From: Venturia oleaginea | Taxonomy: Eukaryota > Ascomycota > Dothideomycetes > Venturiales > Venturiaceae | NCBI GenBank assembly: GCA_013176395.1 | Contig: JABMLP010000009.1 | Coordinates: 1,054,001 to 1,118,000, forward strand | Reading direction: 5' to 3' | Length of the DNA: 64,000 bases | Part shown: in pieces, positions 2,265 to 27,356 of the stretch | How the letters are laid out: every line of letters begins with the position of its first letter | Position numbering within the stretch: position 1 is the first letter of the stretch | Translations under genes and position numbers: made by a program | The notes under the pieces: generated by a model | Seen by the model: the letters and a program-made list of their open reading frames with translations, nothing else | The model's database searches: none | Told to the model about the DNA's origin: nothing

Positions 2265-3244
2265 TGTGAGGAAAAGGAGAAATGTTTCAGGATAGTCAAA
2301 TTATTCATTGCGGCTCTAACAGAGTGTACCTTTTAACATATTCAATGTACTCGATGTCAGGCCCTGGATTTGCAGGGGTTTGGTGGGTCTTGTTGGGTTG
2401 TGTCTGTGTACATGCACACTGACCGAATACGAGGGCGTAGGCGGACAAAAGCGTCGATAGCAAAATCTACCTACTGATCATGTTCAGAACTAGAGAGATA
2501 GCAAAAAGGGTAGGCATTGGCTCAACGTCGGCCAGGTCTTTTGGCCGCAGTGAAAAAAGGCTACTTCATTCTCTTCGTTCTCGCGTAATAAATCTGGGCA
2601 CCATCACGGGCCGAAGCGCCGCTCTCGTCTCTGGTTAGAGAATGCCAGATGTGGAAGATATGTCGGCGTGGTGCTGATGTCGGTGATTGAGATAGATTAC
2701 TCGAGCCTCTTTCCGAGGACTTTCCGATGAGCGAGCAATTACCGTATTCTATCGAGGTGCAATACTGTTCCAACAAGTAGAACGAGAATTAGTAAGGTCT
2801 AAACGAGTCGCGATTTGTCCTTTCCACGGAACCTGTGGATAGAGATAGCTGTCCGCGGTAAGCGTCTGGTGCATTGTGAATGTCCATGTGCGTAAGGCTT
2901 GATGTGATGATGGTGTTGAGAATACAAGATGAGATTGGCGATGGTGTTGAAAATAGACGAGATTGTCGACGGTGTATAGGTATCTTACCTTATATCCTAG
3001 CCAAGGAACTAGGCCCCGCTCCATCCATCTCCTCTCACCTTCGTAACTGACACCAACTATCTAGAACGGTATGTTTGAAGTTTCAACGGCGCGCCTCCTA
3101 TCAAGTTCCAAACCTCAGGAAGCATTCCAATTTTGTCCCACCTTCACTGCCTTATTTGGCATCGTGTTCAGCTGAAAGCATACATAAAGCGTCGTCCTTT
3201 CGCTATTCTCGCCGCTCGTATCAGCATATCGAGTCCCCCACCCA
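2265..3244. other. Intergenic region between divergent genes
   Basis: About 980 bases separate the starts of the carboxylesterase (leftward) and the DUF1772 gene (rightward), so this stretch should hold both promoters. Short open frames here resemble no family I recognise and lack splice structure. No repeat was seen. Confidence 0.5.
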
Positions 3245-4003
3245 ATGCGGCCTGAGCCCACTAAGATGCCCTGGTCACTGGCAGATCTAGCCGGAATCGC
3301 GAGGGTTACAGGAATAGCTTCATCGGGAATATTTGCTGGTAGAGACCATGTCTGCCTCCAGCGAAGACCTTCTGTACTAACGAATCAAATTCAGGATACA
3401 CTTGGTCGCTCTCAGACGCTGCAGTCCCAGCGATTCTGGCTGCCAAAGATGAGTCAACCATGGCCAGCCAATGGAGAATTCAATATGTGCGAGGATTTAT
3501 CGTGAGTTTCCTCGATATGAAGGCTTTCGAAAGTCAAGCACTCGGAACTAAGAAATTTAGCTTGCAGTACCCTCTACGATAATCAATATCTTCAGCTGGG
3601 GACTTCTTGCGTATATGAGTATGTAAATCTCCGCCTGATCCACCAAAAATATAAATGACGAACGTTCAAAGCCAAAAATCCGTTGGCACGCCAGCTATAC
3701 ACCACAGCAGCTATAACTACAGGCTGTGGAACAGTTTTTGCCTGGACGGCACTACGCCACATCAATGGTGCCCTCTCGATCCGATCTGCGAAGGTTGCGG
3801 GACCTTGGACAGGAGTTGGCAACCTGCCTTTGACGTATAGTGGAAATGAGAAGAGGTCTATTGATACAGAAAAAAAGTACAGCACTGCTGAACTGGTGGT
3901 CAAGTGGAAGAACTACAATCTGGCAAGGTCTATCATACTGCTTGTGGGAACTTTCATTGGGGCGTATGCGTTGGCTTTCACCGACTCTTTGGCCTATCAT
4001 TGA
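3245..4003 (+). CDS. DUF1772 (anthrone oxygenase-like) membrane protein
   Basis: The model has exons 3245-3338, 3395-3501, 3561-3618 and 3672-4003 (196 residues; 189 if the second ATG at 3266 is used). Introns are 53-59 nt; the first has TACTAAC before its acceptor and the second AACTAAG. The joined protein has the DUF1772 layout: an N-terminal membrane segment around ARVTGIASSGIFAG, a QWRIQYVRGF stretch, a third-exon hydrophobic segment, and a C-terminal W-x(3)-N-x(2)-R motif (KWKNYNLARSIILL) leading into the last membrane helix. Some family members act as anthrone oxygenases in polyketide pathways; most are uncharacterised. There is no polyketide synthase nearby, so a specialised-metabolism role is unsupported. 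The family call rests on motif layout. Confidence 0.7.
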
Positions 4004-4713
4004 GATCGAGGCTCCAAAACTCTCGATTTCTTTCCACGACACAGTGGCTTCAACAATTCAGTGGCCCCCTAGCCTCCAGGAATCCCGATATTGTCTTTGA
4101 ACTTTAACTCTAATGCTTGAAGATCGGTATCGATGAATTTCTGGCGAACTCGTTTCTTGAGGTGGCCAGAAATCTATCGATACCAATCTTGAGTCGAAGA
4201 GGATAATATTAGTCAAGCTATGCCATGAGGGATAATGAATTGATCAAGCTACTGTGGCGGTGCTACGTCAAGATCACAAATGCTACGTGTTTCTACAGTC
4301 ATTCCATTGGTAGCGACAAACCCAAATCCCCCACAAACCAAGAAGAATTCTTCTCTGGTGTGGAAGTATAATGAAGACACGTTTATTCACCAATATTCTC
4401 TGCTGCACACACTTACCACCAGAGGAACGCTCCGGAGCATAACTTGAACATACAAAGACGGCAAACTAGGCTTGGTAGCTAAGACCACAACCCTCGTCTA
4501 CCTGGAATTACGATAGCACCAGCTTCGGTGCACGCAATCTTCTACAACAGAGTAAGTTTTCACACGAGCACCGAGATTCAAATTGGATGACTGATCTTTT
4601 TCTTGTTTCAGCGATGTCTCTGGTGATTTGCGGTGCTGAAGCAGCAAGGTTCAAAGCGCAAAAGAATTATCCAGGGTGAGTTTTCCCGTTAATCCCTTTG
4701 TCTCGCCGTCACC
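4004..4713. other. Gene-poor stretch before the MITE
   Basis: Nothing here looks convincingly coding. A CAG with a plausible upstream polypyrimidine run near 4611 resembles a splice acceptor, but I could not connect it to a gene. The last nine bases (4705-4713) are the left target duplication of the element that follows. Confidence 0.4.
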
Positions 4714-5115
4714 AGGCCTTTTTACATTCGGACTAAGCCAGTCCAGCTAAGGGCGCCGGATGCTAAGCGGTCTGTAGACTGGGCTTTGGTCGGCGTCGAG
4801 ACGTGTCGCCCTAGATATCCTTACCTTGTCGTCAGGAGGAGATGGAAGCTATATAGAATTATCCTAATTAGGAAGTGGATACGAGAATTTTTATTGGAAA
4901 TTAATCTAGGTAAATGACTAAGATTAAAAGCGGGATACTTGAAGATTTTCTACTTCCTAATTGGGACAATTATGTAGAAGAACCTACCTCCTGACTGCTT
5001 ACGTGGCCTAGCCGCCAGATAGCAGAGTCTATACTTTAATCCGACGGCGGGCGGAGACTGGGTCGCCCAGACGTCCTAAGATTGTAAGCTCCCGGCGCGA
5101 ACTGTCAAAAGGCCT
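4714..5115. mobile_element. MITE of Mutator type, about 402 bp
   Basis: A non-coding element bounded by 13-bp terminal inverted repeats: 4714-4726 is aggcctttttaca and 5103-5115 is its inverse with one mismatch. The 9-bp sequence gccgtcacc flanks it directly at 4705-4713 and, after one extra base, at 5117-5125. A 9-bp duplication is typical of Mutator-like elements. The interior contains no transposase frame and is partly self-complementary beyond the 13 bp, as expected for a miniature element mobilised in trans. Confidence 0.75.
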
Positions 5116-11841: not shown

Positions 11842-13449
11842 GATTGTTGTTTTGGATGTGTGGTTTGAGAAGAGAAAGAGTTGTTAGACTTGAACTTTGC
11901 TTTTGGTAAGAAGAGATGATATTGATCTGAGTTGAATAGTTGTGGATTGAAGGATTGAGGCTGAATTCAAGTGCCAAGTTCCGTTCTTATACACCACCAC
12001 CACCACCACCACCACCATCACCATCACCATCACCATCCATCAACGTCTCCATTTGAGGACCTCTGCCGTCATATTTCCCACTGCCAGGAACACACTGTAC
12101 ATGTATCAAAACCAAGTGAGGCCACTCTCACAGAAAACCCATCCCAGTGAAACAATAGCTTCAAGTTGAGGCATTTCACCAGAACTCAGCTCAAACCTAT
12201 GCCCCGCTGTCGGAAAGATTCTTCAACAGGTGGGAGAAGACCGAGATCCTGGAATATCAGCTCGGTAGCTCCAGTAACGACATCTCTTTCGAGTTTGAAA
12301 GTAAAAGTCAAATATGGCTGATTACTTCAGTGGCTGTCTGAGCCACTAGGAGACGTCATAGGGCTGTTAGGGTTAGACCTCTGAAACGCGAAGCCGCGCG
12401 AGGTGTGGAAGCCTGATGTGGACGTTCATGTCCGAGGAGAGAAATCGCTTTGCAGAATGGGGAATTTGATATATTATACGAGTTTCAACTCTTGGCTTTC
12501 TGGAATCTGGAACGCGTCGCCAGAAGGATGTGACTGTCGAAGACGGTGCGGAAGTATCCGTAGATCGGCGTGATCGAAACACATCGTTTCTAGAAGCAAT
12601 ATATTTCATCACAACCTCGGTTGGCGGAATTGGGAAATAGCTCGTGTCAATTATGAAGACCAGTTGAGGTATATCGTCGCGTCCATACCTACTACCCAAG
12701 CTCTCGTCTCTATACCTCCCTTAAAACCTCTCAACCTCCCCAATCTGTTACACCTTCTCGTCTACAAGAAATAGACCGTCCCTGAATTCATGACCCTCAA
12801 AAGCCCAGATATCGATTAGAAATGAGACCCAATTAATGTATACCGTACTAGATTCCAAGAAAACTTGTACGCGAGACCAGGTCCGCACGGCTACGTTTTG
12901 TATGAGAAAATACTCATCTATAAAAATGCGAGCAAAGATCAGCCGTGCCACCCTTGCCTCGCGTACAGCTTTGCACGGAATCTACTATCACGGTACCCCG
13001 TATCGTTCTTGGACCACTCCTCGTGAATGAACAAGGAAACGTCTTAATTGCCAGGCCCCCAACGGAAGAATGAGTTTAAATATTTAATAGCCTGTGAGCA
13101 CGTTGCCAATCCCCCAGATTATTCCGAGCCAACTCAGTGGTCCATCGCGTCGCGCTAATTGGTCGCTGCCATCTGATCAACCGTTCTTGTCTATACACGT
13201 TGCGGCGAGACTATCAAAACCCCGTAAAGGTCTTGGGCAATTCCACTTGCTTATGGTGTTCGTGCCGGCCAACCATAACGCTTTGTGTCTCCTTGGCCCC
13301 TTCCACCAACACGGGTGCTACCATGGTAGTCAATCTGTAGTACTTAGGTCGTGGCATCTGTGGTGCTCTCTGAAGATTACTCTCCTTCCTTCACGCCCAT
13401 TGTTTCTTTCCACTTTCGTTAATTGTCCGATTCTGCGGACAGCCAAATC
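11842..13449. other. Intergenic region with a (CAC/CAT)n microsatellite
   Basis: A trinucleotide tract of CAC then CAT units runs from about 11992 to 12037, upstream of the small secreted-protein gene. Frames at 12373-12699 (-) and 12748-12951 (-) have no recognised motif and no splice structure. The last few hundred bases should contain the sedolisin promoter. Confidence 0.45.
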
Positions 13450-15419
13450 ATGGTGTCCAAGACGATCCTTGGGGCCTTTGCGCTCTCGTTCGCAGCTGGA
13501 AGTAATGCTGCGACAGCGATGAAGCAGGTGGAATCTGTTAGCAATGCTGCTTTGGCTTCACAGGGCTGGGCAGTCGCACGAACGCCTCCGTCTGAGGAAC
13601 CACTTACTCTTCAAATTGGCCTCACCTTCCAGAATATCGACAAGATGTTTACCAAGCTTCTCGATCTCTCGAATAAGAAATCCCCAAACTACGGCAAGTG
13701 GTTGGATCGGGACGACTTGATTGCGATGGTGCAGCCAAGTCTGTCAGCCAACGAGGCTGTCATCAATTGGCTGAATTCGGAGGGCGTCTCGAAAGTTTCC
13801 AGCGATGGCACCGTGGTTACGTTCAGCACTACCATCGAGACGGCGAACAGGATCTTGAATGCCGATTTCCGGGGATATGAAAGGTCGGGAATATCGAAGG
13901 TTCGGACGGTCGAGTACTCTGTTCCACAAGATATCGCCGAGCATATCGATGTAATTCATCCGACAACTTTCTTCGGAAAGACCCAGGCTTTTGCTCCAGT
14001 TCATACCAAATTCGGCCATGAAATCGAGACAATCAAGACAGCCAACTTTGCGAGGAGTGAACAGGCTCCGTCCACTGAGAGTCCACCCACCAAACAGCAG
14101 ACAGTAGCAAAAGAATGCGCAGAAGGCATCACGCCATCATGTATTAATCAACTGTACAATATTGGAAATTACACAGCACTGGCAACCTCTGGCAGTAAGG
14201 TCGGCTTCGGCAGTTTCCTGAACCAAACCGCAGGAGGAGAAGAACTCCGACTTTATAACGAGTACCACCACCTTCCAAAACACAACTTCACCAAGGTCGA
14301 GGTCACCGTAGGTGCCGCGAAACCTCTAAAACCAGACACTGGCGAGGCCAACTTGGATGCTCAAACCATGGTTGCAGTGGCTTACCCACTTCCCATCACT
14401 GAGTTTTTGACCGGTGGCTCTCCGCCATTTGTCCCAGATCTGGAGATGTCAGATCCCTCGAAGAACACCAATGAGCCGTATCTGCCGTATTACCAGCACC
14501 TTCTCTCCCTCAAGAATTCACAGCTACCACAAGCCATCTCGAACTCGTATGGAGAGCCCGAGCAGACTGTTCCCAAACGCTATGCCGAGCGTACCTGTAC
14601 ATTAATGGCCATGATGGGAATACGTGGTATAACGGTGTTGGAATCTTCAGGTGACACGGGTATTGGTGCCGCATGTTTGAGCAACGATGGCAAAAAGAGG
14701 AAGCGATTCGACAACCAATTCCCCAGCACTTGCCCTTGGATCACTTCGATAGGAGGAACTCAGGCGGTGAATCCCGAAGTCGCCTGGTCTGACTCTAGTG
14801 GCGGCTTCTCGGATTATTTCCCTAGGCCAGCTTACCAGTCGCGTGCGGTTGAGACTGTAAGTGGGCGCACAGTTTTGATGTTTGCAAAGCTAACATTGCT
14901 CTTAGTACTTCACCAAACACGCTGCCCCAGCGGTGACAACCACTTGGCTACAATACTATAACAACAAAGGTCGTGCCTTCCCGGACATTTCTGCCCACAG
15001 TCTTTCACCCCCCTTTGTGGTAAGTAATGGCTGCCTGCCGGCCGAATACTCGATCGCTGACCTACCAAATTCAGATCTTTGACGATGGACAACGGACGGA
15101 GAGCGGAGGTACGTCTGCGGCGGCGCCGTTAATGGCAGGAATCTTCGGACTCCTCAATGATGCTCGTCTCCGAGCCAATCTTTCAACGCTGGGCTTTGTC
15201 AACCCATGGCTATACGAGTATGCAAGTGATTTTGTTGTAGACATCACTGCTGGCGCTGGTCGTGGCTGTGACGGCACCAATCACCAAACCGGCAAGCGTC
15301 TGAACAACAGCGGTCTCATTCCTGATGCATTCTGGAATGCCACGGTCGGTTGGGACGCTGTGACGGGATTGGGGATTCCAGATTTCCAGAAGATGGTCAA
15401 ATCTGCCCTGGCCAAGTGA
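13450..15419 (+). CDS. Sedolisin-family serine-carboxyl peptidase (S53, tripeptidyl-peptidase-like)
   Basis: Exons 13450-14856, 14906-15019 and 15075-15419 (introns 49 and 55 nt) give 621 residues. A signal peptide (ALSFAAGSNA) precedes an S53 pro-domain (residues about 30-200) with NYGKWLDRDDL. The catalytic Glu and Asp are in GEANLDAQ (about 299 and 303). The oxyanion Asp is in ESSGDTGIG, and the Ser in SGGTSAAAP (about 521) is created by joining exon 3. The C-terminal calcium site is represented by DITAG and GWDAVTGLGIPDF. All residues needed for activity are present. Family members are secreted, work at acidic pH and remove tripeptides from the N-termini of proteins, or act as endopeptidases; which applies here is open. 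Confidence 0.93.
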
Positions 15420-15645: not shown

Positions 15646-15707
15646 AATGGATGGTTTTTCGTGCTCGGATGTCGCCTCTGCACCTCACCCCTATCTGGAC
15701 GCACGGC
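15646..15707 (+). repeat. Left terminal inverted repeat of copy A (62 bp)
   Basis: It begins aatggatggtttttcgtgct and is repeated in reverse complement at 20301-20362 with a single difference. The equivalent position beyond copy B's 5' end has no such sequence. Confidence 0.65.
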
Positions 15708-16312
15708 ACGGCTCAGTGAGCGGAAGAACAAGTCTGACAGGATATATAACTAGGGATTCTCGCTGTTTTCATTGTTTCATAGCTCAAACTCCCGGGTTGA
15801 CTGTCATCATTGTGGTATCGCATCATTTGCATATCCAACATAGTTGTCCAATTGGCAATTCATTTATCTTATCGATACCCTTACCGCCTCTCTTGACCAA
15901 TCAAGTCAATTCATTTTGCCCGTCTATCTCCAGATCTTATTCACCAAAAGTAGCTTGCTACGTCGCCAAAATTGCGCCGTCCAATCCCTTTCAGAGATCC
16001 AGCAGGATCCAAAGGTCTCCAGTTATCGACGCTACAGCTAGATTACGCAGTCAGACACCTCGGGCTCGCCGCCCTTCTGCTGCTACCTCTGAGGAGATTG
16101 AGGCAGCTCTTGCGAGTCCTACAAACCAATTACAGGACGAATGAGACGAATCAGACGTACCTGAGACTCTCCTTCCGTCTCCATCAGACAAGATAGCCTA
16201 TCATCTCTTAGGAACGCCTCAAGCAGCAACTCCTAAAGCTGTAACTCTCAAACCAGCGGTTTCGAAAGCTACCACCCTACCTCTACCTCTACCTCCGAAG
16301 GAAACCTCTACA

Positions 16313-17187
16313 ATGGTCGACGGTCCTTCCGGCAAGCGCCCGGAATCCAACCTAGGAGGCATCATGTACACTGAGGAGGAACGTAGGGAACTTGTACAAC
16401 TTCACCTGAGAGAAGCTAGGGCTCGAACTGCTACAGCTGAGGCCGCTGCCAACGCTCCAGCACCTCCAGTCGTCAACAGGCCTGGAGGTATCATGGAGAT
16501 TGAAGACTCTGCTGGTGAGTTAGTCTCTATTCCAGAAGTTCAGTCAGCAATGGACCTTCTTCCTCATCTGCCACGCAAGGAATTGGTGAAAATCTGGAAG
16601 GGTACCTTCGACCCAAGGAACCTACCTCTCTTAAGGCTCAAAATTTACAGATTCTGGATACTCCAGAAGATCGCCTAGGCGTCTCAGGCGATCAATGGAC
16701 TGTCAGGCGTACTCACGTCGATGAGAAGTACTTTGGCAATGATCCAGCTATATGGTCTCAAACTTTCCTGAACTACGCGCGGGTTTTAAGTCACTACCAT
16801 GTAGCCAAGTTCCCTCGCCTGATCGTGTCAATGATGGACTTTCATGCCCAAATTATGAGCTATTACGACACATACGTCTGGCAGGGAGGTGTCCTCCGCC
16901 TCGCGCTTCGTTGGTATCAGGAAGCTATTGTCCGAGGCGTCACTCTCGATTCCAACTGGCAGGTCCCTCTCAACTGGGAACGACAGATGCTTCAGGCTCC
17001 TATGGTCAAAGGCTCCCTGTCCAACAGAGCCGCCAGCGCTCGTGGCGGCAGCGACAATATCGCGGGAGTTGTCTGCATGAATTACAACACCAGAGACAAG
17101 GGCTGCACTTGGGACACTTGTGTGAGAGACCATATCTGCTTGCGCAGAGGCTGCGATAAGAAACATCCAGCCTTTGAACACAAGTAG
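16313..17187 (+). CDS. Gag-like protein of copy A, in two frames
   Basis: An upstream frame (16313-16678) has an Ala/Arg-rich helical stretch (REARARTATAEAAANAPAP). A second frame, open from before 16640 to 17187, carries a zinc-binding C-terminus with the pattern C-X9-C-X4-C-X4-H-X-C-X4-C-X4-H (start VVCMNYNTRDKGC; end CDKKHPAFEHK). Such Cys/His clusters end the gag-like ORF of other tyrosine-recombinase retrotransposons. Around 16600-16640 the sense passes from one frame to the other, so either a programmed shift or a fixed one-base lesion exists. Copy B has exactly the same arrangement. No canonical slippery heptamer was found in frame. Confidence 0.55.
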
Positions 17188-17325
17188 CCATCACGGCTGC
17201 GATCTGAGCCTGCCAACAGACAGCTGAAACCTCAGAAATCGCTTAGCCTTCAGCTACCTTATTCACATTCCAGTTCATCGCTTTCGCTGCGTCCAAATGC
17301 AATATCCTTTTATCCTTTTCGCACG

Positions 17326-19407
17326 TTGCCTCCGGCTAGGCCTAACACCACACTTTCCTTCAAGGTCTTTGACCCATCTACACCCTCCTTACGCAACTCA
17401 CCTTCCCCCTTCGTGCCTTCAGCATGGAGAACACGCCTGGCGCGTTATCCAGGTAACTTACCTCATATTCTGGGTGGCATTTTGAGACACGGTGTCCAGA
17501 TTGGGTATGGCCCTATCCAACATCTACATTCGAAAAATCTCGCCTCAGTTTCTCTGGCACCTCATATCATTGAAACCCAGGTCCAGCAAGACCTCATACG
17601 TGGCCGCATCTCTATTCATAATGGAAGCGCGCCCTTCATATCATCACCCTTGGGTCTTGTCCCAAAAGGTGATGGTGGTTGGAGAAGAATTCATCATCTT
17701 TCTCACCCTAGCACCCATTCGGTGAACGACCACATTCCAGCCTCACGGGCGGCCATTCATTACACTAGATTCGACAGCATTCTGTCATCTATTCGCCTCA
17801 CGGGTAGAAGCTCCATTCTCATCAAACGCGACATTGAGAGTGCCTTCAGGAACATCCCAGTTGCCTACAACCAAAGGTGGCTCTTAGGCATGAAATGGGG
17901 CCTATTCTACACCGAAAATTGCCTACCATTTGGCCTCCGCACGGCGCCCTTCCTATTCAACCTCTTTGCTGAGGGTTTTCATTGGATTCTACATCACCAA
18001 TTCTCATGGCGCGTTAAGCATTACTTAGATGACTTCGTTATGATCTTTCCACCTTCTGCCCAGCCTGCCCACCTTATTCGATCGGTCTCCGATGACTACA
18101 AGCTCATCACTGACGAACTAGGCATTCCTAGGAATGACTCGAAGGATGAACAAGGTACCACAGTTGTCACCCTAGGCCTCGAGATTGACACGGTCAAGAT
18201 GGAAGCGCGCCTACCAGCGAAAAAGATCACCAAAGGTATCGCTATTGCTGAGGCCCTGCTCAAAGCCAATTCAGTCACTAAATACGACATGGAATCTGCT
18301 GCCGGATTCTACTCATTCTGCTCTTCAGTAGTCCACCTTGGCCGCGCCTTTCTACGCAGAATCTGGGATTTCACTGCTTCATTCAATCGATCGAAGGCGC
18401 TACGCCAATCTCTCTCGCCTGGAGCGCGTCAAGACCTCATTTGGTGGCGTGATCTTCTTACCAAGTTCAATGGAATCTACTTCTTCGAAGATAATGAGCG
18501 CGCTGCAGTCACTCTCTTTTCAGATGCCTCATCTTTCGCCTCCGGCGCATACTTCATCTCTGAAGATGACAAGTGGCCTTTTGCCCAACATGCCTACGCC
18601 TGCCCTCACACCCATCCTGCTTTTCACATCAACTATCACGAGATAGACGCGATCTTAAGGTCCTTCCAATGCTGGGCTTCCTTATGGTCGCACAAAGAAG
18701 TTCATATTATGACAGACAGCACCACGGCATTCTATGCAATCAAAAACCACTCAGTTCGAGGTTTGGCAATGGATTCTCTACGTCAACTTCTGCTTCTAGC
18801 CGCCCAGCATGATGTCAAGCTCACACCTCACTGGATTTCTTCGCAGAATAACCGCCTCGCTGACGCTCTCTCTCGCCTTGACATTGACACCATTGCTGAC
18901 TTAACTGGCTGGCAGAACCTCTCGCTTTCAAACCTCCTATCTGGTATATTCGCCAGATCAACGAAGACCGACCGGGTCACACCTCCAACTATATCAGGAT
19001 GCTTTGGTATCGCCTCTCTGCAGACACCCAGTCTGGTTACCGCACCGCCGTCACCTCGTACGAAGTCTCTTGCGCAATCGATGGACATCCGCCTTGGCCG
19101 TCTACTGAGACCACAATTGGGCGATACATTGAGCGAAGAGGCTTTGGAACTGACGGTATTACACAAGTTAAGCCGTCTAAAATCGACTCTAACCTCTCTG
19201 CCATCCGCGCATATCACGTCGACAGATCCCTCTCAACCTCCCACTTCTGCTGCGAACACCTCCGGGGCCTTATCAAAGGCCTTAAGAGGCTGTTTAATGG
19301 ATGCCAACGAGAAGACGTTACGCCTGAACTTTTGTACCAGATCTCAGCACCTTTTACGGACAGCATGGACAAGGATGAAGTCAACATTACTGCTGCCCAT
19401 ACAGTAG
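17326..19407 (+). CDS. Reverse transcriptase/RNase H of copy A
   Basis: A 693-residue protein. The fingers/palm begin around FISSPLGLVPKGDGGWRRI; RDIESAF holds the first catalytic Asp and HYLDDFVM (about residue 232) is the YxDD box. An RNase H domain follows, with FSDASS, NYHEIDA, MTDSTTAFYAI and NRLADALSRLD supplying the acidic residues. After RNase H the reading frame continues without a known domain, overlapping the recombinase ORF by about 400 nt. No integrase or protease was seen. It would copy the element RNA into DNA. The ORF is intact, with no premature stop. Confidence 0.92.
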   Translation: MPPARPNTTLSFKVFDPSTPSLRNSPSPFVPSAWRTRLARYPGNLPHILGGILRHGVQIGYGPIQHLHSKNLASVSLAPHIIETQVQQDLIRGRISIHNGSAPFISSPLGLVPKGDGGWRRIHHLSHPSTHSVNDHIPASRAAIHYTRFDSILSSIRLTGRSSILIKRDIESAFRNIPVAYNQRWLLGMKWGLFYTENCLPFGLRTAPFLFNLFAEGFHWILHHQFSWRVKHYLDDFVMIFPPSAQPAHLIRSVSDDYKLITDELGIPRNDSKDEQGTTVVTLGLEIDTVKMEARLPAKKITKGIAIAEALLKANSVTKYDMESAAGFYSFCSSVVHLGRAFLRRIWDFTASFNRSKALRQSLSPGARQDLIWWRDLLTKFNGIYFFEDNERAAVTLFSDASSFASGAYFISEDDKWPFAQHAYACPHTHPAFHINYHEIDAILRSFQCWASLWSHKEVHIMTDSTTAFYAIKNHSVRGLAMDSLRQLLLLAAQHDVKLTPHWISSQNNRLADALSRLDIDTIADLTGWQNLSLSNLLSGIFARSTKTDRVTPPTISGCFGIASLQTPSLVTAPPSPRTKSLAQSMDIRLGRLLRPQLGDTLSEEALELTVLHKLSRLKSTLTSLPSAHITSTDPSQPPTSAANTSGALSKALRGCLMDANEKTLRLNFCTRSQHLLRTAWTRMKSTLLLPIQ

Positions 19408-20000
19408 CCTTTGCAGGCATGTTCCGCATGGGGGAACTCTGCTATGAACACAAGGAAACTAAGAATGCCTTACTTTTCAGATCGACTCGAGTCCTGCGCA
19501 GCGATGTCACCATTGCGCCCAACGATTCTTACGCAACCCTCCATTTGAAACGCTCCAAAAGCGACGCTAATCACGAAGGTGCTACGGTCTACCTTGCAGC
19601 CTCACCTCATTCACCAGCTACCTGCCCAATCCGAGCCCTCCGCTGCCTCTTTACTATCGATCCTAAGCCTGCCAACTCACCTCTCTTTAACGTGCGAGGC
19701 GCCTGCACCAAACTTAAAGTCAACAGCGCTCTCACCGCACGAATGGACCTCGCCGGGTTGCCTACAACAGGTTATTCAGGACACAGTTTTCGCAAAGGCG
19801 CTGCCTCGGCAGCGGCCAGGCGTGGAATCTCGTACGAGGACATTCAAATCATGGGCAGATGGCGCTCAGATTCTGCACGTTTGTACATTAGGCATGACCC
19901 GGCGCGAATGGCTCACCTCGCCTACCAGGCAGTCAATGGCAAGTTGCCCATCATTACTGGCCTGCCTACACCGCCGGCTTCACAACCTCCGCCAATCTGA
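18999..20000 (+). CDS. Tyrosine recombinase of copy A
   Basis: A 333-residue protein in a frame different from the RT ORF, overlapping its end by 409 nt. An N-terminal SAM-like core-binding part (TQSGYRTAVTSYEVSC) leads into the catalytic domain, with Arg I in AGMFRMGELCYEH, a Lys-containing beta-hairpin (LHLKRSKSD), the H-x-x-R box GHSFRKGAASAAARRGISYE, Trp in MGRWRSDS and the nucleophile Tyr in SARLYIRHDP. All five key positions are present. In DIRS-type elements this enzyme integrates a circular DNA copy by strand exchange, without target duplication. It is not like the DUF3435 captains of Starship elements in length or context. Confidence 0.9.
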   Translation: MLWYRLSADTQSGYRTAVTSYEVSCAIDGHPPWPSTETTIGRYIERRGFGTDGITQVKPSKIDSNLSAIRAYHVDRSLSTSHFCCEHLRGLIKGLKRLFNGCQREDVTPELLYQISAPFTDSMDKDEVNITAAHTVAFAGMFRMGELCYEHKETKNALLFRSTRVLRSDVTIAPNDSYATLHLKRSKSDANHEGATVYLAASPHSPATCPIRALRCLFTIDPKPANSPLFNVRGACTKLKVNSALTARMDLAGLPTTGYSGHSFRKGAASAAARRGISYEDIQIMGRWRSDSARLYIRHDPARMAHLAYQAVNGKLPIITGLPTPPASQPPPI

Positions 20001-20300
20001 GTCGATTGGCGCAGTCTTCGACTTCGTACATTGTACGAATGCCGTTTACCCACCCTGGCCGCTAGCCCAATCACATACACACACACTCTTTTTTCTACTC
20101 ATTTCACTCAATCTCCCTCAGTTATATCCTCAGCCTTGCTGCCGGCCTCGTCACCTTCCTTCCCTCACAATTGGGCCTTTCCTTGGGCTTCTTTTCGTGC
20201 ATTGCCTGGCAGAATGGCACAGCTCATTTGGCCTAGCTCCTAGGCCAAGCTTGCTGTACTACCCTGCCGCCACACGGCTTTGCCGAAAGGCCTGCCAATT

Positions 20301-20362
20301 GCCGTGCGTTCAGATAGGGGTGAGGTGCAGAGGCGACATCCGAGCACGAAAAACCATCCATT
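20301..20362 (-). repeat. Right terminal inverted repeat of copy A (62 bp)
   Basis: Reverse complement of 15646-15707 with one mismatch. It lies in the centre of the palindrome, directly after copy A's gccaattg end, and copy B lacks its own version. Confidence 0.65.
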
Positions 20363-20393
20363 TCGTGCATACACATATTGAGCGATTGAGAGG

Positions 20394-20416
20394 CTTAAAA
20401 TCAAGTAGATTTTAAG
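20394..20416. repeat. Small hairpin at the centre of the palindrome
   Basis: cttaaaatc and gattttaag form a 9-bp stem around the loop aagta. It adjoins the 3' end of copy B. Confidence 0.6.
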
Positions 20417-20575
20417 CAATTGGCAGGCCTTTCGGCAAAGCCGTGCAGCGGCAGGGTAGTACAGCAAGCTTGGCCTAGGAGCTAGGCCAAATGAGCTGTG
20501 CCATTCTGCCAGGCAATGCACGAAAAGAAGCCCAAGGAAAGGCCCAATTGTGAGGGAAGGAAGGTGACGAGGCCG

Positions 20576-20767
20576 GCAGCAAGGCTGAGGATATAACTGA
20601 GGGAGATTGAGTGAAATGAGTAGAAAAAAGAGAGTGTGTGTATGTGATTGGGCTAGCGGCCAGGGTGGGTCGGCAGCAAGGCTGAGGATATAACTGAGGG
20701 AGATTGAGTGAAATGAGTAGAAAAAAGAGTGTGTGTGTATGTGATTGGGCTAGCGGCCAGGGTGGGT
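20576..20767. repeat. Tandem duplication of about 97 bp in copy B only
   Basis: The block from cggcagcaaggctgagg to cggccagggtgggt occurs twice in a row here but once in copy A (about 20047-20143). The two units differ in the GT-rich run (agagagtgtgtgtatg versus agagtgtgtgtgtatg). It lies in the untranslated 3' region after the recombinase stop. Confidence 0.85.
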
Positions 20768-20814
20768 AAACGGCATTCGTACAATGTACGAAGTCGAAGA
20801 CTGCGCCAATCGAC

Positions 20815-21816
20815 TCAGATTGGCGGAGGTTGTGAAGCCGGCGGTGTAGGCAGGCCAGTAATGATGGGCAACTTGCCATTGACTGCCTGGTAGGCGAGGT
20901 GAGCCATTCGCGCCGGGTCATGCCTAATGTACAAACGTGCAGAATCTGAGCGCCATCTGCCCATGATTTGAATGTCCTCGTACGAGATTCCACGCCTGGC
21001 CGCTGCCGAGGCAGCGCCTTTGCGAAAACTGTGTCCTGAATAACCTGTTGTAGGCAACCCGGCGAGGTCCATTCGTGCGGTGAGAGCGCTGTTGACTTTA
21101 AGTTTGGTGCAGGCGCCTCGCACGTTAAAGAGAGGTGAGTTGGCAGGCTTAGGATCGATAGTAAAGAGGCAGCGGAGGGCTCGGATTGGGCAGGTAGCTG
21201 GTGAATGAGGTGAGGCTGCAAGGTAGACCGTAGCACCTTCGTGATTAGCGTCGCTTTTGGAGCGTTTCAAATGGAGGGTTGCGTAAGAATCGTTGGGCGC
21301 AATGGTGACATCGCTGCGCAGGACTCGAGTCGATCTGAAAAGTAAGGCATTCTTAGTTTCCTTGTGTTCATAGCAGAGTTCCCCCATGCGGAACATGCCT
21401 GCAAAGGCTACTGTATGGGCAGCAGTAATGTTGACTTCATCCTTGTCCATGCTGTCCGTAAAAGGTGCTGAGATCTGGTACAAAAGTTCAGGCGTAACGT
21501 CTTCTCGTTGGCATCCATTAAACAGCCTCTTAAGGCCTTTGATAAGGCCCCGGAGGTGTTCGCAGCAGAAGTGGGAGGTTGAGAGGGATCTGTCGACGTG
21601 ATATGCGCGGATGGCAGAGAGGTTAGAGTCGATTTTAGACGGCTTAACTTGTGTAATACCGTCAGTTCCAAAGCCTCTTCGCTCAATGTATCGCCCAATT
21701 GTGGTCTCAGTAGACGGCCAAGGCGGATGTCCATCGATTGCGCAAGAGACTTCGTACGAGGTGACGGCGGTGCGGTAACCAGACTGGGTGTCTGCAGAGA
21801 GGCGATACCAAAGCAT
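20815..21816 (-). CDS. Tyrosine recombinase of copy B
   Basis: Identical in translation to the copy A recombinase (333 residues; Arg, H-x-x-R and Tyr all present). It overlaps the RT ORF of its own copy in the same way. An intact second copy doubles the potential source of recombinase. Confidence 0.9.
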   Translation of the reverse strand: MLWYRLSADTQSGYRTAVTSYEVSCAIDGHPPWPSTETTIGRYIERRGFGTDGITQVKPSKIDSNLSAIRAYHVDRSLSTSHFCCEHLRGLIKGLKRLFNGCQREDVTPELLYQISAPFTDSMDKDEVNITAAHTVAFAGMFRMGELCYEHKETKNALLFRSTRVLRSDVTIAPNDSYATLHLKRSKSDANHEGATVYLAASPHSPATCPIRALRCLFTIDPKPANSPLFNVRGACTKLKVNSALTARMDLAGLPTTGYSGHSFRKGAASAAARRGISYEDIQIMGRWRSDSARLYIRHDPARMAHLAYQAVNGKLPIITGLPTPPASQPPPI

Positions 21817-23489
21817 CCTGATATAGTTGGAGGTGTGACCCGGTCGGTCTTCGTTGATCTGGCGAATATACCAGATAGGAGGTTTGAAAGCGAGAGGTTC
21901 TGCCAGCCAGTTAAGTCAGCAATGGTGTCAATGTCAAGGCGAGAGAGAGCGTCAGCGAGGCGGTTATTCTGCGAAGAAATCCAGTGAGGTGTGAGCTTGA
22001 CATCATGCTGGGCGGCTAGAAGCAGAAGTTGACGTAGAGAATCCATTGCCAAACCTCGAACTGAGTGGTTTTTGATTGCATAGAATGCCGTGGTGCTGTC
22101 TGTCATAATATGAACTTCTTTGTGCGACCATAAGGAAGCCCAGCATTGGAAGGACCTTAAGATCGCGTCTATCTCGTGATAGTTGATGTGAAAAGCAGGA
22201 TGGGTGTGAGGGCAGGCGTAGGCATGTTGGGCAAAAGGCCACTTGTCATCTTCAGAGATGAAGTATGCGCCGGAGGCGAAAGATGAGGCATCTGAAAAGA
22301 GAGTGACTGCAGCGCGCTCATTATCTTCGAAGAAGTAGATTCCATTGAACTTGGTAAGAAGATCACGCCACCAAATGAGGTCTTGACGCGCTCCAGGCGA
22401 GAGAGATTGGCGTAGCGCCTTCGATCGATTGAATGAAGCAGTGAAATCCCAGATTCTGCGTAGAAAGGCGCGGCCAAGGTGGACTACTGAAGAGCAGAAT
22501 GAGTAGAATCCGGCAGCAGATTCCATGTCGTATTTAGTGACTGAATTGGCTTTGAGCAGGGCCTCAGCAATAGCGATACCTTTGGTGATCTTTTTCGCTG
22601 GTAGGCGCGCTTCCATCTTGACCGTGTCAATCTCGAGGCCTAGGGTGACAACTGTGGTACCTTGTTCATCCTTCGAGTCATTCCTAGGAATGCCTAGTTC
22701 GTCAGTGATGAGCTTGTAGTCATCGGAGACCGATCGAATAAGGTGGGCAGGCTGGGCAGAAGGTGGAAAGATCATAACGAAGTCATCTAAGTAATGCTTA
22801 ACGCGCCATGAGAATTGGTGATGTAGAATCCAATGAAAACCCTCAGCAAAGAGGTTGAATAGGAAGGGCGCCGTGCGGAGGCCAAATGGTAGGCAATTTT
22901 CGGTGTAGAATAGGCCCCATTTCATGCCTAAGAGCCACCTTTGGTTGTAGGCAACTGGGATGTTCCTGAAGGCACTCTCAATGTCGCGTTTGATGAGAAT
23001 GGAGCTTCTACCCGTGAGGCGAATAGATGACAGAATGCTGTCGAATCTAGTGTAATGAATGGCCGCCCGTGAGGCTGGAATGTGGTCGTTCACCGAATGG
23101 GTGCTAGGGTGAGAAAGATGATGAATTCTTCTCCAACCACCATCACCTTTTGGGACAAGACCCAAGGGTGATGATATGAAGGGCGCGCTTCCATTATGAA
23201 TAGAGATGCGGCCACGTATGAGGTCTTGCTGGACCTGGGTTTCAATGATATGAGGTGCCAGAGAAACTGAGGCGAGATTTTTCGAATGTAGATGTTGGAT
23301 AGGGCCATACCCAATCTGGACACCGTGTCTCAAAATGCCACCCAGAATATGAGGTAAGTTACCTGGATAACGCGCCAGGCGTGTTCTCCATGCTGAAGGC
23401 ACGAAGGGGGAAGGTGAGTTGCGTAAGGAGGGTGTAGATGGGTCAAAGACCTTGAAGGAAAGTGTGGTGTTAGGCCTAGCCGGAGGCAA
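21408..23489 (-). CDS. Reverse transcriptase/RNase H of copy B
   Basis: Identical in translation to the copy A protein (693 residues, YLDDF box and RNase H acidic residues intact). There is no nonsense codon, frameshift or run of C-to-T changes between the copies. Confidence 0.92.
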   Translation of the reverse strand: MPPARPNTTLSFKVFDPSTPSLRNSPSPFVPSAWRTRLARYPGNLPHILGGILRHGVQIGYGPIQHLHSKNLASVSLAPHIIETQVQQDLIRGRISIHNGSAPFISSPLGLVPKGDGGWRRIHHLSHPSTHSVNDHIPASRAAIHYTRFDSILSSIRLTGRSSILIKRDIESAFRNIPVAYNQRWLLGMKWGLFYTENCLPFGLRTAPFLFNLFAEGFHWILHHQFSWRVKHYLDDFVMIFPPSAQPAHLIRSVSDDYKLITDELGIPRNDSKDEQGTTVVTLGLEIDTVKMEARLPAKKITKGIAIAEALLKANSVTKYDMESAAGFYSFCSSVVHLGRAFLRRIWDFTASFNRSKALRQSLSPGARQDLIWWRDLLTKFNGIYFFEDNERAAVTLFSDASSFASGAYFISEDDKWPFAQHAYACPHTHPAFHINYHEIDAILRSFQCWASLWSHKEVHIMTDSTTAFYAIKNHSVRGLAMDSLRQLLLLAAQHDVKLTPHWISSQNNRLADALSRLDIDTIADLTGWQNLSLSNLLSGIFARSTKTDRVTPPTISGCFGIASLQTPSLVTAPPSPRTKSLAQSMDIRLGRLLRPQLGDTLSEEALELTVLHKLSRLKSTLTSLPSAHITSTDPSQPPTSAANTSGALSKALRGCLMDANEKTLRLNFCTRSQHLLRTAWTRMKSTLLLPIQ

Positions 23490-23627
23490 CGTGCGAAAAG
23501 GATAAAAGGATATTGCATTTGGACGCAGCGAAAGCGATGAACTGGAATGTGAATAAGGTAGCTGAAGGCTAAGCGATTTCTGAGGTTTCAGCTGTCTGTT
23601 GGCAGGCTCAGATCGCAGCCGTGATGG

Positions 23628-24502
23628 CTACTTGTGTTCAAAGGCTGGATGTTTCTTATCGCAGCCTCTGCGCAAGCAGATATGGTCTCTCACACAAGTG
23701 TCCCAAGTGCAGCCCTTGTCTCTGGTGTTGTAATTCATGCAGACAACTCCCGCGATATTGTCGCTGCCGCCACGAGCGCTGGCGGCTCTGTTGGACAGGG
23801 AGCCTTTGACCATAGGAGCCTGAAGCATCTGTCGTTCCCAGTTGAGAGGGACCTGCCAGTTGGAATCGAGAGTGACGCCTCGGACAATAGCTTCCTGATA
23901 CCAACGAAGCGCGAGGCGGAGGACACCTCCCTGCCAGACGTATGTGTCGTAATAGCTCATAATTTGGGCATGAAAGTCCATCATTGACACGATCAGGCGA
24001 GGGAACTTGGCTACATGGTAGTGACTTAAAACCCGCGCGTAGTTCAGGAAAGTTTGAGACCATATAGCTGGATCATTGCCAAAGTACTTCTCATCGACGT
24101 GAGTACGCCTGACAGTCCATTGATCGCCTGAGACGCCTAGGCGATCTTCTGGAGTATCCAGAATCTGTAAATTTTGAGCCTTAAGAGAGGTAGGTTCCTT
24201 GGGTCGAAGGTACCCTTCCAGATTTTCACCAATTCCTTGCGTGGCAGATGAGGAAGAAGGTCCATTGCTGACTGAACTTCTGGAATAGAGACTAACTCAC
24301 CAGCAGAGTCTTCAATCTCCATGATACCTCCAGGCCTGTTGACGACTGGAGGTGCTGGAGCGTTGGCAGCGGCCTCAGCTGTAGCAGTTCGAGCCCTAGC
24401 TTCTCTCAGGTGAAGTTGTACAAGTTCCCTACGTTCCTCCTCAGTGTACATGATGCCTCCTAGGTTGGATTCCGGGCGCTTGCCGGAAGGACCGTCGACC
24501 AT
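23628..24502 (-). CDS. Gag-like protein of copy B, in two frames
   Basis: Same two-frame layout as copy A: the upstream frame is 24502-24137 and the zinc-cluster frame ends at 23628. Because both copies share the frame change, it was present in the parent of both and is not a lesion acquired after duplication. Confidence 0.55.
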
Positions 24503-25031
24503 TGTAGAGGTTTCCTTCGGAGGTAGAGGTAGAGGTAGGGTGGTAGCTTTCGAAACCGCTGGTTTGAGAGTTACAGCTTTAGGAGTTGCTGCTTGAGGCG
24601 TTCCTAAGAGATGATAGGCTATCTTGTCTGATGGAGACGGAAGGAGAGTCTCAGGTACGTCTGATTCGTCTCATTCGTCCTGTAATTGGTTTGTAGGACT
24701 CGCAAGAGCTGCCTCAATCTCCTCAGAGGTAGCAGCAGAAGGGCGGCGAGCCCGAGGTGTCTGACTGCGTAATCTAGCTGTAGCGTCGATAACTGGAGAC
24801 CTTTGGATCCTGCTGGATCTCTGAAAGGGATTGGACGGCGCAATTTTGGCGACGTAGCAAGCTACTTTTGGTGAATAAGATCTGGAGATAGACGGGCAAA
24901 ATGAATTGACTTGATTGGTCAAGAGAGGCGGTAAGGGTATCGATAAGATAAATGAATTGCCAATTGGACAACTATGTTGGATATGCAAATGATGCGATAC
25001 CACAATGATGACAGTCAACCCGGGAGTTTGA

Positions 25032-25109
25032 GTAACGTTGTAATGGTACAGGCTTGTGTAACGTTGTGATGGTACGGGCTTGTGTAACGTTGTAATGGTA
25101 CGGGCTGAT
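25032..25109. repeat. 26-bp tandem repeat, three units, beside copy B
   Basis: Three units of the form gtaacgttgtaatggtacgg plus gcttgt start exactly at the outer edge of copy B and lie in the 5' flank of ETP1. A 12-bp piece of the unit, gggcttgtgtaa, also occurs at 15636-15647, immediately outside copy A. Confidence 0.8.
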
Positions 25110-25298
25110 ACAACGTAATGATGAATTGCTGTTCCATTGTTTGCAACGGAAGCAAACTGGAGTAATAATACGATCCTGGCCTCCCCATCAGCTGACCAAC
25201 GATTGCAGTTGGCCCTTACCTTCACAATCCAAGGCCGTAACAAATGCATAGTCGTACAAAGAAAAGATGACTGCAGATGTCCTAGTTCCCGATTCCCG

Positions 25299-27356
25299 AT
25301 GCCTCCAGCCTACTTCTACCACTTAGCCTTTGAGCTCTACCCAGCCCATTCCAAAGACTGTGAACAGCTCTATATCCCCGCCCCAGGCACCGACATCTTC
25401 ACCTCCGACTTTCCCGCCCATAGAACCTACGCCTTGGACTCCAGAACTCCCAAAAGACCTGGCCACAGACGTACCAAAACTGATACCCCACCCAATAGTG
25501 GCCTGGACAAACTGCGATCCTCTTCCTTTGCCCGCTCCAACGACGACCGCAAAGCAAACCTGGGCCCTGCCGCCACCTTTCCCAAAAACACCTCCACTTC
25601 TCAACCGCACACGATTCCTGTGAAAGACTGGCGTCTTGAGGCCGTCACAATCGACAGCATAGACATGGAGGAGAGGATAGTGCAAGAACGTCGTCCCGCT
25701 ACAAAGAAGGCCGCTGCCGCTTCCGAGGGAGAACTAATAACAAGAGCCACCTTCTACCCGACAGATCCCAAGAGCACCGATGTAGGATGGGGCGTGGTAC
25801 ACCTCTATCGAGACACTGAAAAAACCCCACGTCCGTACGATGAAGGATATATCCCCACTGGTGACATCACATTTGATGAGGAAGAATGCACTACATTGTG
25901 CATTTTAGCCGTGCCATTCTATATGGCCCCGTACGATCTCCTTGGCTGGGCTGGACCGCAAGTGCAGGACGACATAAGCCATTTCAGATTCGTTCGCTCG
26001 GGAATGGCAGACTACTATATGGCTCTGATGAAGTTTCGGGAGGCAAAGAAGGCAAATGCATGGCGCAAAGAATACAATGGACGCTCGTACAATTTCATGG
26101 AGCCGCAGACTGCTCATGTTGTCTTTGTTCGATCCATCACATTCCAAACGGGCGACAACATGCAGAAACCGTTGAGCTTCCCAAATATGAGCAACGACCC
26201 TTTCATTCCGGATTCTCAACCATCCATAAAAGCTGCAGCTCCTGCATCTACAGAATCATCCCTCACCATTGGCCACATCACCCAACCCGAAGCATCGTCC
26301 AGCTCGAACGTCGTTGAGCTCCCCACTTGTCCAGTCTGCTTAGAGAGAATGGATGAGACAACCGGGCTGATGACCATCCTCTGCCAACACGTCTTCCACT
26401 GCAATTGTTTGGAGAAGTGGAAAGGAAGTGCCTGTCCTGTTTGTAGATACACCCAAGTTCGCAGCTACCCTGGCCGGGGCATTCTTACATCACCTCACGG
26501 GGGTTCGGGTAATGCCTGCACTACGTGTGGTGCGGAGCAGAACCTATGGATATGCTTGGTTTGTGGCAATGTTGGTTGTGGCAGATACGACAGTGCTCAC
26601 GCTCACGCTCACTACGAATCGACTTCACACTGCTACGCAATGGACATAGCTACCCAACATGTCTGGGACTATGCCGGTGATGGCTATGTTCACCGTCTGA
26701 TTCAAAACAAGGATGAGTTGAAACCAAGGGCACCTGGCTCCGAACCCATCGACAGCAAGGCCGTTGATGGCGGCATGGCAGCATTTGGAGCAGACATGGT
26801 ACCGAGAGAAAAGATGGAAGCTATGGGAAACGAGTACGCCTATCTCTTGCTAAGCCAGCTTGGCAACCAGCGGATATATTACGAGGATACATTAGCGAGA
26901 GCAAATGAGAAAGCAAAGAAGGCATGCGCAGCCGCGGACAAGGTTGCTGCAGCTTTGGATGCTGTTGCCCAGAAGCTATCGGACATGCAGACACAACATT
27001 CCGAGGCCCTGGCCACCATCAAGGACTTGGAGAAGAACCTGGATCGGACGACAAAAAAGGCCGACAAGACCAATGCATTGGCTCAAAAGCTGGCCAAGGA
27101 CTGGCAGGCGGAGAAGACGATGAATGAGGCGCTGTTGCAAAAGATCAAGTTTCTTGATGGTAAACTCAAAGACAACGAGAAGAAGAACGCAGGATTGCAA
27201 GCTGAGAAAGCCGAGCTAGAAGAGCAGAACCGAGATCTCATCTTCACTATCACGGGCGGCGAGAAATTTAAAGAGCTGAAGGAGGCCGGTGAGGATGTGG
27301 ATGGCCAGATTGAGATTGGCACCAAGGGGAAGAAGGGGAAAGGCAGGAAGAAGTAG
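25299..27356 (+). CDS. ETP1: BRAP2/Etp1-type RING ubiquitin ligase
   Basis: A single exon of 685 residues from the ATG at 25299. The frame is open from 25137, but family members start with a short leader before YFYHLAFELY, so I chose 25299. In order: N-terminal BRAP2 domain (ITRATFYPTDPK; FVRSGMADYYMALMKF), RING finger with CPVCLERMDETTG and CQHVFHCNCLEKW (about 344-385), UBP-type zinc finger CTTCGAEQNLWICLVCGNVG plus H-rich HAHAHYESTSHC (about 407-470), then a coiled coil to about 665 and a basic tail (KKGKGRKK). Human BRAP2 and yeast Etp1 share this order; they act as ubiquitin ligases in signalling and stress tolerance. The retrotransposon pair ends 267 bp upstream and probably sits within or next to the promoter. 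Confidence 0.92.
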   Translation: MPPAYFYHLAFELYPAHSKDCEQLYIPAPGTDIFTSDFPAHRTYALDSRTPKRPGHRRTKTDTPPNSGLDKLRSSSFARSNDDRKANLGPAATFPKNTSTSQPHTIPVKDWRLEAVTIDSIDMEERIVQERRPATKKAAAASEGELITRATFYPTDPKSTDVGWGVVHLYRDTEKTPRPYDEGYIPTGDITFDEEECTTLCILAVPFYMAPYDLLGWAGPQVQDDISHFRFVRSGMADYYMALMKFREAKKANAWRKEYNGRSYNFMEPQTAHVVFVRSITFQTGDNMQKPLSFPNMSNDPFIPDSQPSIKAAAPASTESSLTIGHITQPEASSSSNVVELPTCPVCLERMDETTGLMTILCQHVFHCNCLEKWKGSACPVCRYTQVRSYPGRGILTSPHGGSGNACTTCGAEQNLWICLVCGNVGCGRYDSAHAHAHYESTSHCYAMDIATQHVWDYAGDGYVHRLIQNKDELKPRAPGSEPIDSKAVDGGMAAFGADMVPREKMEAMGNEYAYLLLSQLGNQRIYYEDTLARANEKAKKACAAADKVAAALDAVAQKLSDMQTQHSEALATIKDLEKNLDRTTKKADKTNALAQKLAKDWQAEKTMNEALLQKIKFLDGKLKDNEKKNAGLQAEKAELEEQNRDLIFTITGGEKFKELKEAGEDVDGQIEIGTKGKKGKGRKK

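Follow-up and report, generated by a model that had tools for sequence, protein, structure and literature searches.

Retrotransposons that encode a tyrosine recombinase are little known in ascomycetes. According to the available part of a 2013 survey of 177 fungal genomes, they contained one truncated Ngaro element, in Neosartorya fischeri (PMC3783388). The available text of a 2015 study reports that the dothideomycete Zymoseptoria tritici has one complete family of Ngaro elements (PMC4502367). An earlier note on the DNA analyzed here stated that surveys had found such elements in Ascomycota at most as remnants, which is true of the 2013 survey and has been overtaken by the Z. tritici family. 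In Cafeteria burkhardae, Ngaro elements are accompanied by solo AB repeats at scattered genomic locations, as described in the accessible sections of PMC8547959. The SIRE sequence of Trypanosoma cruzi has been equated with the A2-B2 part of the element VIPER, and the portion of PMC6681497 at hand does not decide between SIRE as a mobile sequence and SIRE as a remnant. A 2014 survey states, in its available text, that forms intermediate between split and inverted repeats are not observed (PMC4157794).

The locus described here is located in a 64,000-nucleotide stretch of the genome of Venturia oleaginea (contig JABMLP010000009.1, positions 1,054,001–1,118,000), which is called the window. Positions 15647–20361 of the window are probably one of the two arms in a mirror-image pair, 9.4 kb long, of elements with the gene order gag-reverse transcriptase (RT)-RNase H-tyrosine recombinase. 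In this joint reading, the elements are likely of the Ngaro type, the pair is likely the product of a strand switch in the course of reverse transcription, and both halves would have been integrated together into a minisatellite by means of a recombinase-type left end. The recombinase retrotransposon itself is of a known type; the new part is the fold-back anatomy. Word searches of open-licence PMC papers found no description of fold-back or palindromic copies of such elements.

The mirror-image pair in the window

Copy 1 of the element, a member of family A, is encoded by the plus strand. Its gene for RT and RNase H at positions 17326–19407 (open frame 17188–19404) matches the Pfam family RVT_1 with an E value of 2.5e-10. 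The RT contains the motif YLDDF at residue 233, and the RNase H motifs are present with the residues D, E, D, and D. The tyrosine recombinase gene (18900–20000, plus strand, open 18900–19997) overlaps the RT frame, and its product has the complete catalytic set R143, K187, H262-x-x-R265, W288, and Y296. The Pfam Phage_integrase score of the recombinase is 14.8 bits, which is under the family cut-off of 27.1, and its top match in the PDB is Cre with an E value of 0.038. Therefore, its identification is based on the catalytic residues and on homologues. The gag region (16145–17187, plus strand) is a broken frame with open pieces at 16145–16675 and 16519–17184 and a cysteine-rich motif near its end. 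The gag frame is disrupted in both copies in the window, which have intact RT, RNase H, and recombinase, and at least two other family-A copies have open gag, RT, and recombinase frames. At the gag–RT boundary of two family-A copies (L030 and L032), the gag stop codon is followed by RT that is open in the same frame, so that read-through or re-initiation would be needed.

Four family-A proteins were scanned against Pfam; their matches include no DDE integrase, and no methyltransferase at E values of up to 1. No long terminal repeats (LTRs) were found at the window element. The combination of RT and RNase H with a tyrosine recombinase and no DDE integrase match is that of the order DIRS. A classification as an LTR retrotransposon was rejected, because neither long terminal direct repeats nor a DDE integrase was found. 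The RT with YLDDF, the RNase H, the overlapping recombinase frame, and the lack of an integrase and LTRs had been read from the sequence previously, and all are borne out. The description of the element as intact holds for its RT, RNase H, and recombinase; by contrast, its gag is broken, and the element is one arm of a palindrome.

The inverted second copy, which the earlier note missed, is on the minus strand at 20416–25032 and begins at position 137 of repeat A, not at position 1. The list of open reading frames (ORFs) places its recombinase at 20815–21816 and its RT and RNase H at 21408–23489, both on the minus strand. The identity of the two arms is unbroken over 4365 nt. Their 4617 aligned columns include two substitutions, both within the last 32 columns, and a single gap of 97 nt, which corresponds to a tandem duplication present in copy 2 alone (20571–20764). 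C>T and G>A changes account for 17 of the 24 private substitutions of window copy 1, possibly as a result of mild repeat-induced point mutation.

Copy 1 starts with a 185-nt A repeat (A1, 15647–15831, plus strand) that is common to full copies and to 417-bp solos. A1 contains the sequence TTTCGTGC, which forms the right arm of the putative recombinase core, as well as a TATATAA box that starts at 15743, corresponding to element position 97. The B repeat of copy 1 (20183–20302, plus strand) comprises the first 120 of 175 nt, and its normal end is absent. It is followed by the first part of an inverted A repeat (20303–20361, minus strand), which pairs with 15646–15708 as a 63-nt inverted repeat, and by the terminal 56 nt of the copy 2 B repeat (20361–20416, minus strand). 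The segment 20303–20416 is the reverse complement of the end-to-start, circle-type B–A junction of the family, and the center of the window pair matches the two ends of copy L030 in 61 of 62 and 56 of 56 bases. The 63-nt inverted repeat marks the limits of 15646 and 20362 that were previously assigned to the element. It is best read as a fold-back product and not as the normal terminus of family A, since all eight other family-A loci with both ends terminate otherwise.

The right side of the palindrome adjoins a minisatellite with a 26-nt unit (25033–25123). The last 12 bases of the left flank (tail GGGCTTGTGTAA) recur in this minisatellite, and the left and right flanks joined by a 3-nt overlap (TAA) rebuild its unit. 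This suggests that 15647–25032 arrived as one piece, with the 9.4-kb palindrome inserted whole into the minisatellite. Directly to the left of the palindrome is a gene with several exons (13423–15419), which we take to encode a sedolisin-like protease.

The pair could also have been formed by two insertions, if a collapsed element that already had inverted A ends received a second circle at its right end, and this second copy was later truncated. A B–A junction such as that at 20361 would be expected from an insertion beside an A end, and locus L044 provides an example of a full copy directly adjoined by an A-spacer-B module. However, copies 1 and 2 show no difference along 4365 nt, whereas most other copies differ from each other by 0.7–1.3%. 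Furthermore, copy 2 stops at A position 137 and not at a recombinase end, and there it directly abuts the minisatellite that also flanks copy 1. Two insertions are therefore an unlikely origin of the pair, and a strand switch is the preferred one.

Host genome, element families, and further fold-back copies

The genome assembly that was searched has 46.1 Mb in 61 contigs, with the window on contig C61, and all counts obtained by searching it are minimum values. A BRAP2-like host gene flanking the pair (25299–27353) encodes a product with 90% identity to a metagenome protein; its nearest named matches are from Tothia fuscella (56%) and Verruconis gallopava (55%), which belong to Venturiales, Dothideomycetes. 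The HET domain is expanded in Pezizomycotina, and the at least 140 HET-domain matches in the genome fit a host from this group. The attribution of the element to an ascomycete genome thus holds. The earlier note had considered that the contig might be a contamination, which is very unlikely because coding copies of family A are spread over ten contigs.

At least three related families of recombinase retrotransposons are present on many contigs: family A, to which the window element belongs, and families B and C. Family A has at least nine coding loci besides the window. Its copies differ pairwise by 0.13–1.31%, and two copies at separate sites differ in five of 3894 columns. Loci L031 and L033 have common flanks on different contigs and represent a segmental duplication. 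The copy pairs L056 and L057, and L061 and L064, are also located on different contigs with identical flanks, and are segmental duplications. Nine loci of family B were fetched, which have about 70% DNA identity to family A; in the better matches, the recombinases of the two families are 57–58% and the RTs 60–68% identical. For family C, the identities are 40–42% (RT) and 34–35% (recombinase). Family C is the youngest, with at least 51 of 88 recombinase matches having its 388-residue open frame. About eight 201-nt tandem repeats are located between the RT and recombinase ORFs of family C (L051, positions 3097–4796, and also L053), and the repeat unit is similar to part of the RNase H coding sequence.

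Trees were constructed by quick searches, with SH-aLRT values as the only support, from 57 recombinase rows (54 of 119 matches) and 65 RT rows (62 of 120 listed, of 774 matches). Apart from the element families themselves, the rows of both trees are search matches, few of which are named. In the recombinase tree, families A and B join two other proteins (support 100) and then three more (97), and family C is positioned deeper (89). Proteins from Termitomyces, Pleurotus, and Mycena form a separate group (94). In the RT tree, families A and B are sisters (100) with other proteins near them (92). Family C groups with one protein (99) and, together with three more, joins Penicillium, Talaromyces, and Aspergillus (97). 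The named proteins among the RT relatives with 42–43% identity are from Penicillium odoratum, P. subrubescens, Talaromyces stipitatus, and Aspergillus fischeri. Neither tree nests families A, B, and C within a basidiomycete clade.

Horizontal acquisition had been offered previously as one of two readings of the element, and a basidiomycete or mucoromycete donor would be in agreement with the named recombinase matches, which are from basidiomycetes, and with a distribution in ascomycetes that looks patchy. However, all three families are outside the agaricomycete recombinase clade in the quick tree, the RT of family C groups with Eurotiales (SH-aLRT 97), and the named fungal RT matches are from ascomycetes. 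A transfer from basidiomycetes is not supported by these sequence comparisons, and acquisition from either group is improbable.

Fold-back copies are not limited to the window. Copy L035 starts at A position 135 (A 135–185) and ends in a complete inverted A, which provides it with 51-nt inverted termini. The family-B copy L050 is palindromic, with arms of 1777 nt that are 100% identical. Some long-read libraries are known to yield perfect long palindromes as artefacts, which counts for the window pair being an assembly or library artefact of a single real copy. By contrast, the ends of the arms differ (15783 versus 15647), the center is asymmetric, copy 2 has its private 97-nt duplication, the two flanks are different, and family B holds a second palindrome of the same kind. 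An artefact is thus very improbable.

Terminal repeats, solos, and the putative recombinase core

Family C has the order A1-genes-B1-A2-spacer-B2, which is that of Ngaro split direct repeats, with lengths of 117, 235, 117, and 236 nt for A1, B1, A2, and B2, respectively. The search for the B1-A2-B2 block of family C scored 40 of 164 candidates and provides minimum counts. Forty of the 43 matches listed are complete, and three are A-spacer-B only. Three pairs among the complete matches listed overlap by one module, so that they represent 37 loci, three of which have an extra module. All eight family-A loci with both ends are collapsed to A1-genes-B1, and none of them has A2-B2; therefore, the full split-repeat order of family A is deduced from families B and C. 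Solos of family A are 417-bp A-spacer-B modules (185 + 57 + 175 bp) at two sites, with 411 of 417 bases equal, and two older ones are also present. Of the seven family-B loci for which a right end is present, six are collapsed, and the seventh, L044, has the order A1-genes-B1-A2-spacer-B2. Its A1 and A2 differ by about 4%, and B1 and B2 by about 2%; L044 may therefore consist of a collapsed copy with a solo next to it.

At least 15 further near-complete solos of family B were fetched. The A-spacer-B solos occur in all three families, and in each family the spacer begins near CCCACCC. All 15 fetched family-B solos, with 13 distinct flank sets, carry A-part haplotypes of full copies, which favors repeated solo formation. 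That the 405–417-bp modules are one independent mobile lineage was rejected, because the family-B solos share the haplotypes of full copies and have no single diagnostic type. The view that families A and B are without any terminal repeats was also rejected, because family C, L044, and the solos show A and B to be halves of split repeats. Collapsed copies and solos may be formed by the recombinase or by ordinary recombination of A1 with A2 or of B1 with B2, with the same products either way.

The B–A junction reads GCACGAAA-TGGATGGTT-TTTCGTGC in family A, TACGAAA-TGAGTGGTT-TTTCGTA in family B, and AGATAGA-TGCTAGTG-TCTATCT in family C. This core consists of 7–8-nt inverted arms flanking an 8–9-nt spacer; the letters of the arms vary by family, and their complementarity is kept. 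The arms were equalled in 5, 10, and 7 of 20000 shuffles for families A, B, and C, respectively. Inverted arms around a spacer are the expected anatomy of a lox-type crossover site of a tyrosine recombinase, and the core is a putative site of this kind. The base before the left end equals the base after the right end in all 11 family-A rows (10 flank sets). As read by eye, this 1-nt match is not general in families B and C, and therefore no target duplication is claimed. Near the B end, a hairpin is preserved although its sequence differs between the families, with GCTTAAAAT/ATTTTAAGC in family A and GCTTGAAATTGA/TCAATTTCAAGC in family B (for example, in L030 and L042).

No common inverted 9-mer was found between the first 200 nt and the last 400 nt (family A) or 500 nt (family B), and full A and B copies contain no 10-mer complement of their first 60 nt that could belong to an internal complementary region. 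One 10-nt complement of the B end is present inside family-A elements near the 3′ end, which is far shorter than known internal complementary regions. Inverted termini were seen only in fold-back copies. By their anatomy, the elements are likely of the Ngaro type. The window element was previously called a DIRS-like tyrosine-recombinase retrotransposon, of which the recombinase retrotransposon stands, and the DIRS-like part is abandoned. A DIRS-like element with inverted terminal repeats, as the 63-nt inverted repeats bounding 15646–20362 might indicate, is scarcely credible, given that these repeats are absent from the eight other family-A loci, that full A and B copies are without long inverted or complementary repeats, that the Pfam matches of the four scanned proteins include no methyltransferase, and that family C has split direct repeats.

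Proposed replication cycle and comparison with known systems

The anatomy of the elements suggests how they may replicate. The RNA would start inside repeat A, roughly 38–40 nt downstream of the first base of the TATA box. The A positions at which window copy 2 (137) and L035 (135) begin are 38–40 nt past the TATATAA start, where the beginning of an RNA would be expected. The transcript would span the genes, B1, A2, the spacer, and B2, and A2 would supply the missing start of A. The DNA would then circularize to form a B–A junction holding the lox-like core, which the recombinase would join to genomic DNA with no target-site duplication longer than 1 nt. Collapsed copies and 417-bp A-spacer-B solos would be the two products that arise when the split repeats recombine with each other or when recombination takes place at the B1–A2 core, and a polymerase jump to the complementary strand would generate fold-back copies. 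Read on the minus strand, the window pair continues from A position 137 through the genes, the whole of B, and 62 nt of A, and then turns at a 3-nt overlap into antisense sequence that reaches the start of A. Synthesis of this pair would have proceeded in the sense direction from A 137 through B1 and 62 nt of A2, jumped at the 3-nt overlap, and returned in antisense to the start of A1.

It is possible, as a tentative extension of this cycle, that a Ngaro element with split direct repeats acquires inverted termini through strand switching in reverse transcription, with window copy 1 and L035 as intermediates. Copy 1 is bounded by inverted A and A′ sequences and includes a complement of the B–A circle junction; the complete inverted A at the end of L035 resembles the inverted repeat of DIRS with its right extension. 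If this were true, intermediates between split and inverted repeats would have been caught within one genome. The presence of full split-repeat, collapsed, solo, and fold-back copies in one fungus makes the inferred Ngaro cycle testable with regard to the RNA start, the recombinase core used, the origin of solos, and copying slips that would convert split repeats to the inverted repeats of DIRS.

DIRS1-like elements, as presented in the available text of PMC3266345, are also recombinase retrotransposons with a circle junction, overlapping ORFs, and no target duplication. By contrast, they have inverted termini of 66–316 bp and internal complementary regions of 85–130 bp, whereas none such are present here except in fold-back copies. 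SIRE, with approximate parts of 185 + 30 + 220 bp in the accessible portion of PMC6681497, is similar to the family-A solo of 185 + 57 + 175 bp; however, VIPER and SIRE belong to a kinetoplastid lineage, and the gene order given there is Gag, YR, RT/RH. The A1-genes-B1-A2-B2 order of Ngaro elements is matched by family C. The Ngaro family of Z. tritici, likened here by its description in the available part of PMC4502367, shares the gag-RT-RNase H-recombinase order and a host from Dothideomycetes, and a methyltransferase was not found in it either. Unlike the situation described in that part, three families occur together here, and family A is represented only by collapsed copies, solos, and fold-backs. 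Isolated A-B modules are shared with C. burkhardae, as far as the accessible text of PMC8547959 describes its solo AB repeats; however, the solos reported here occur in three families of one fungus, and their shared A haplotypes point to a repeated origin.
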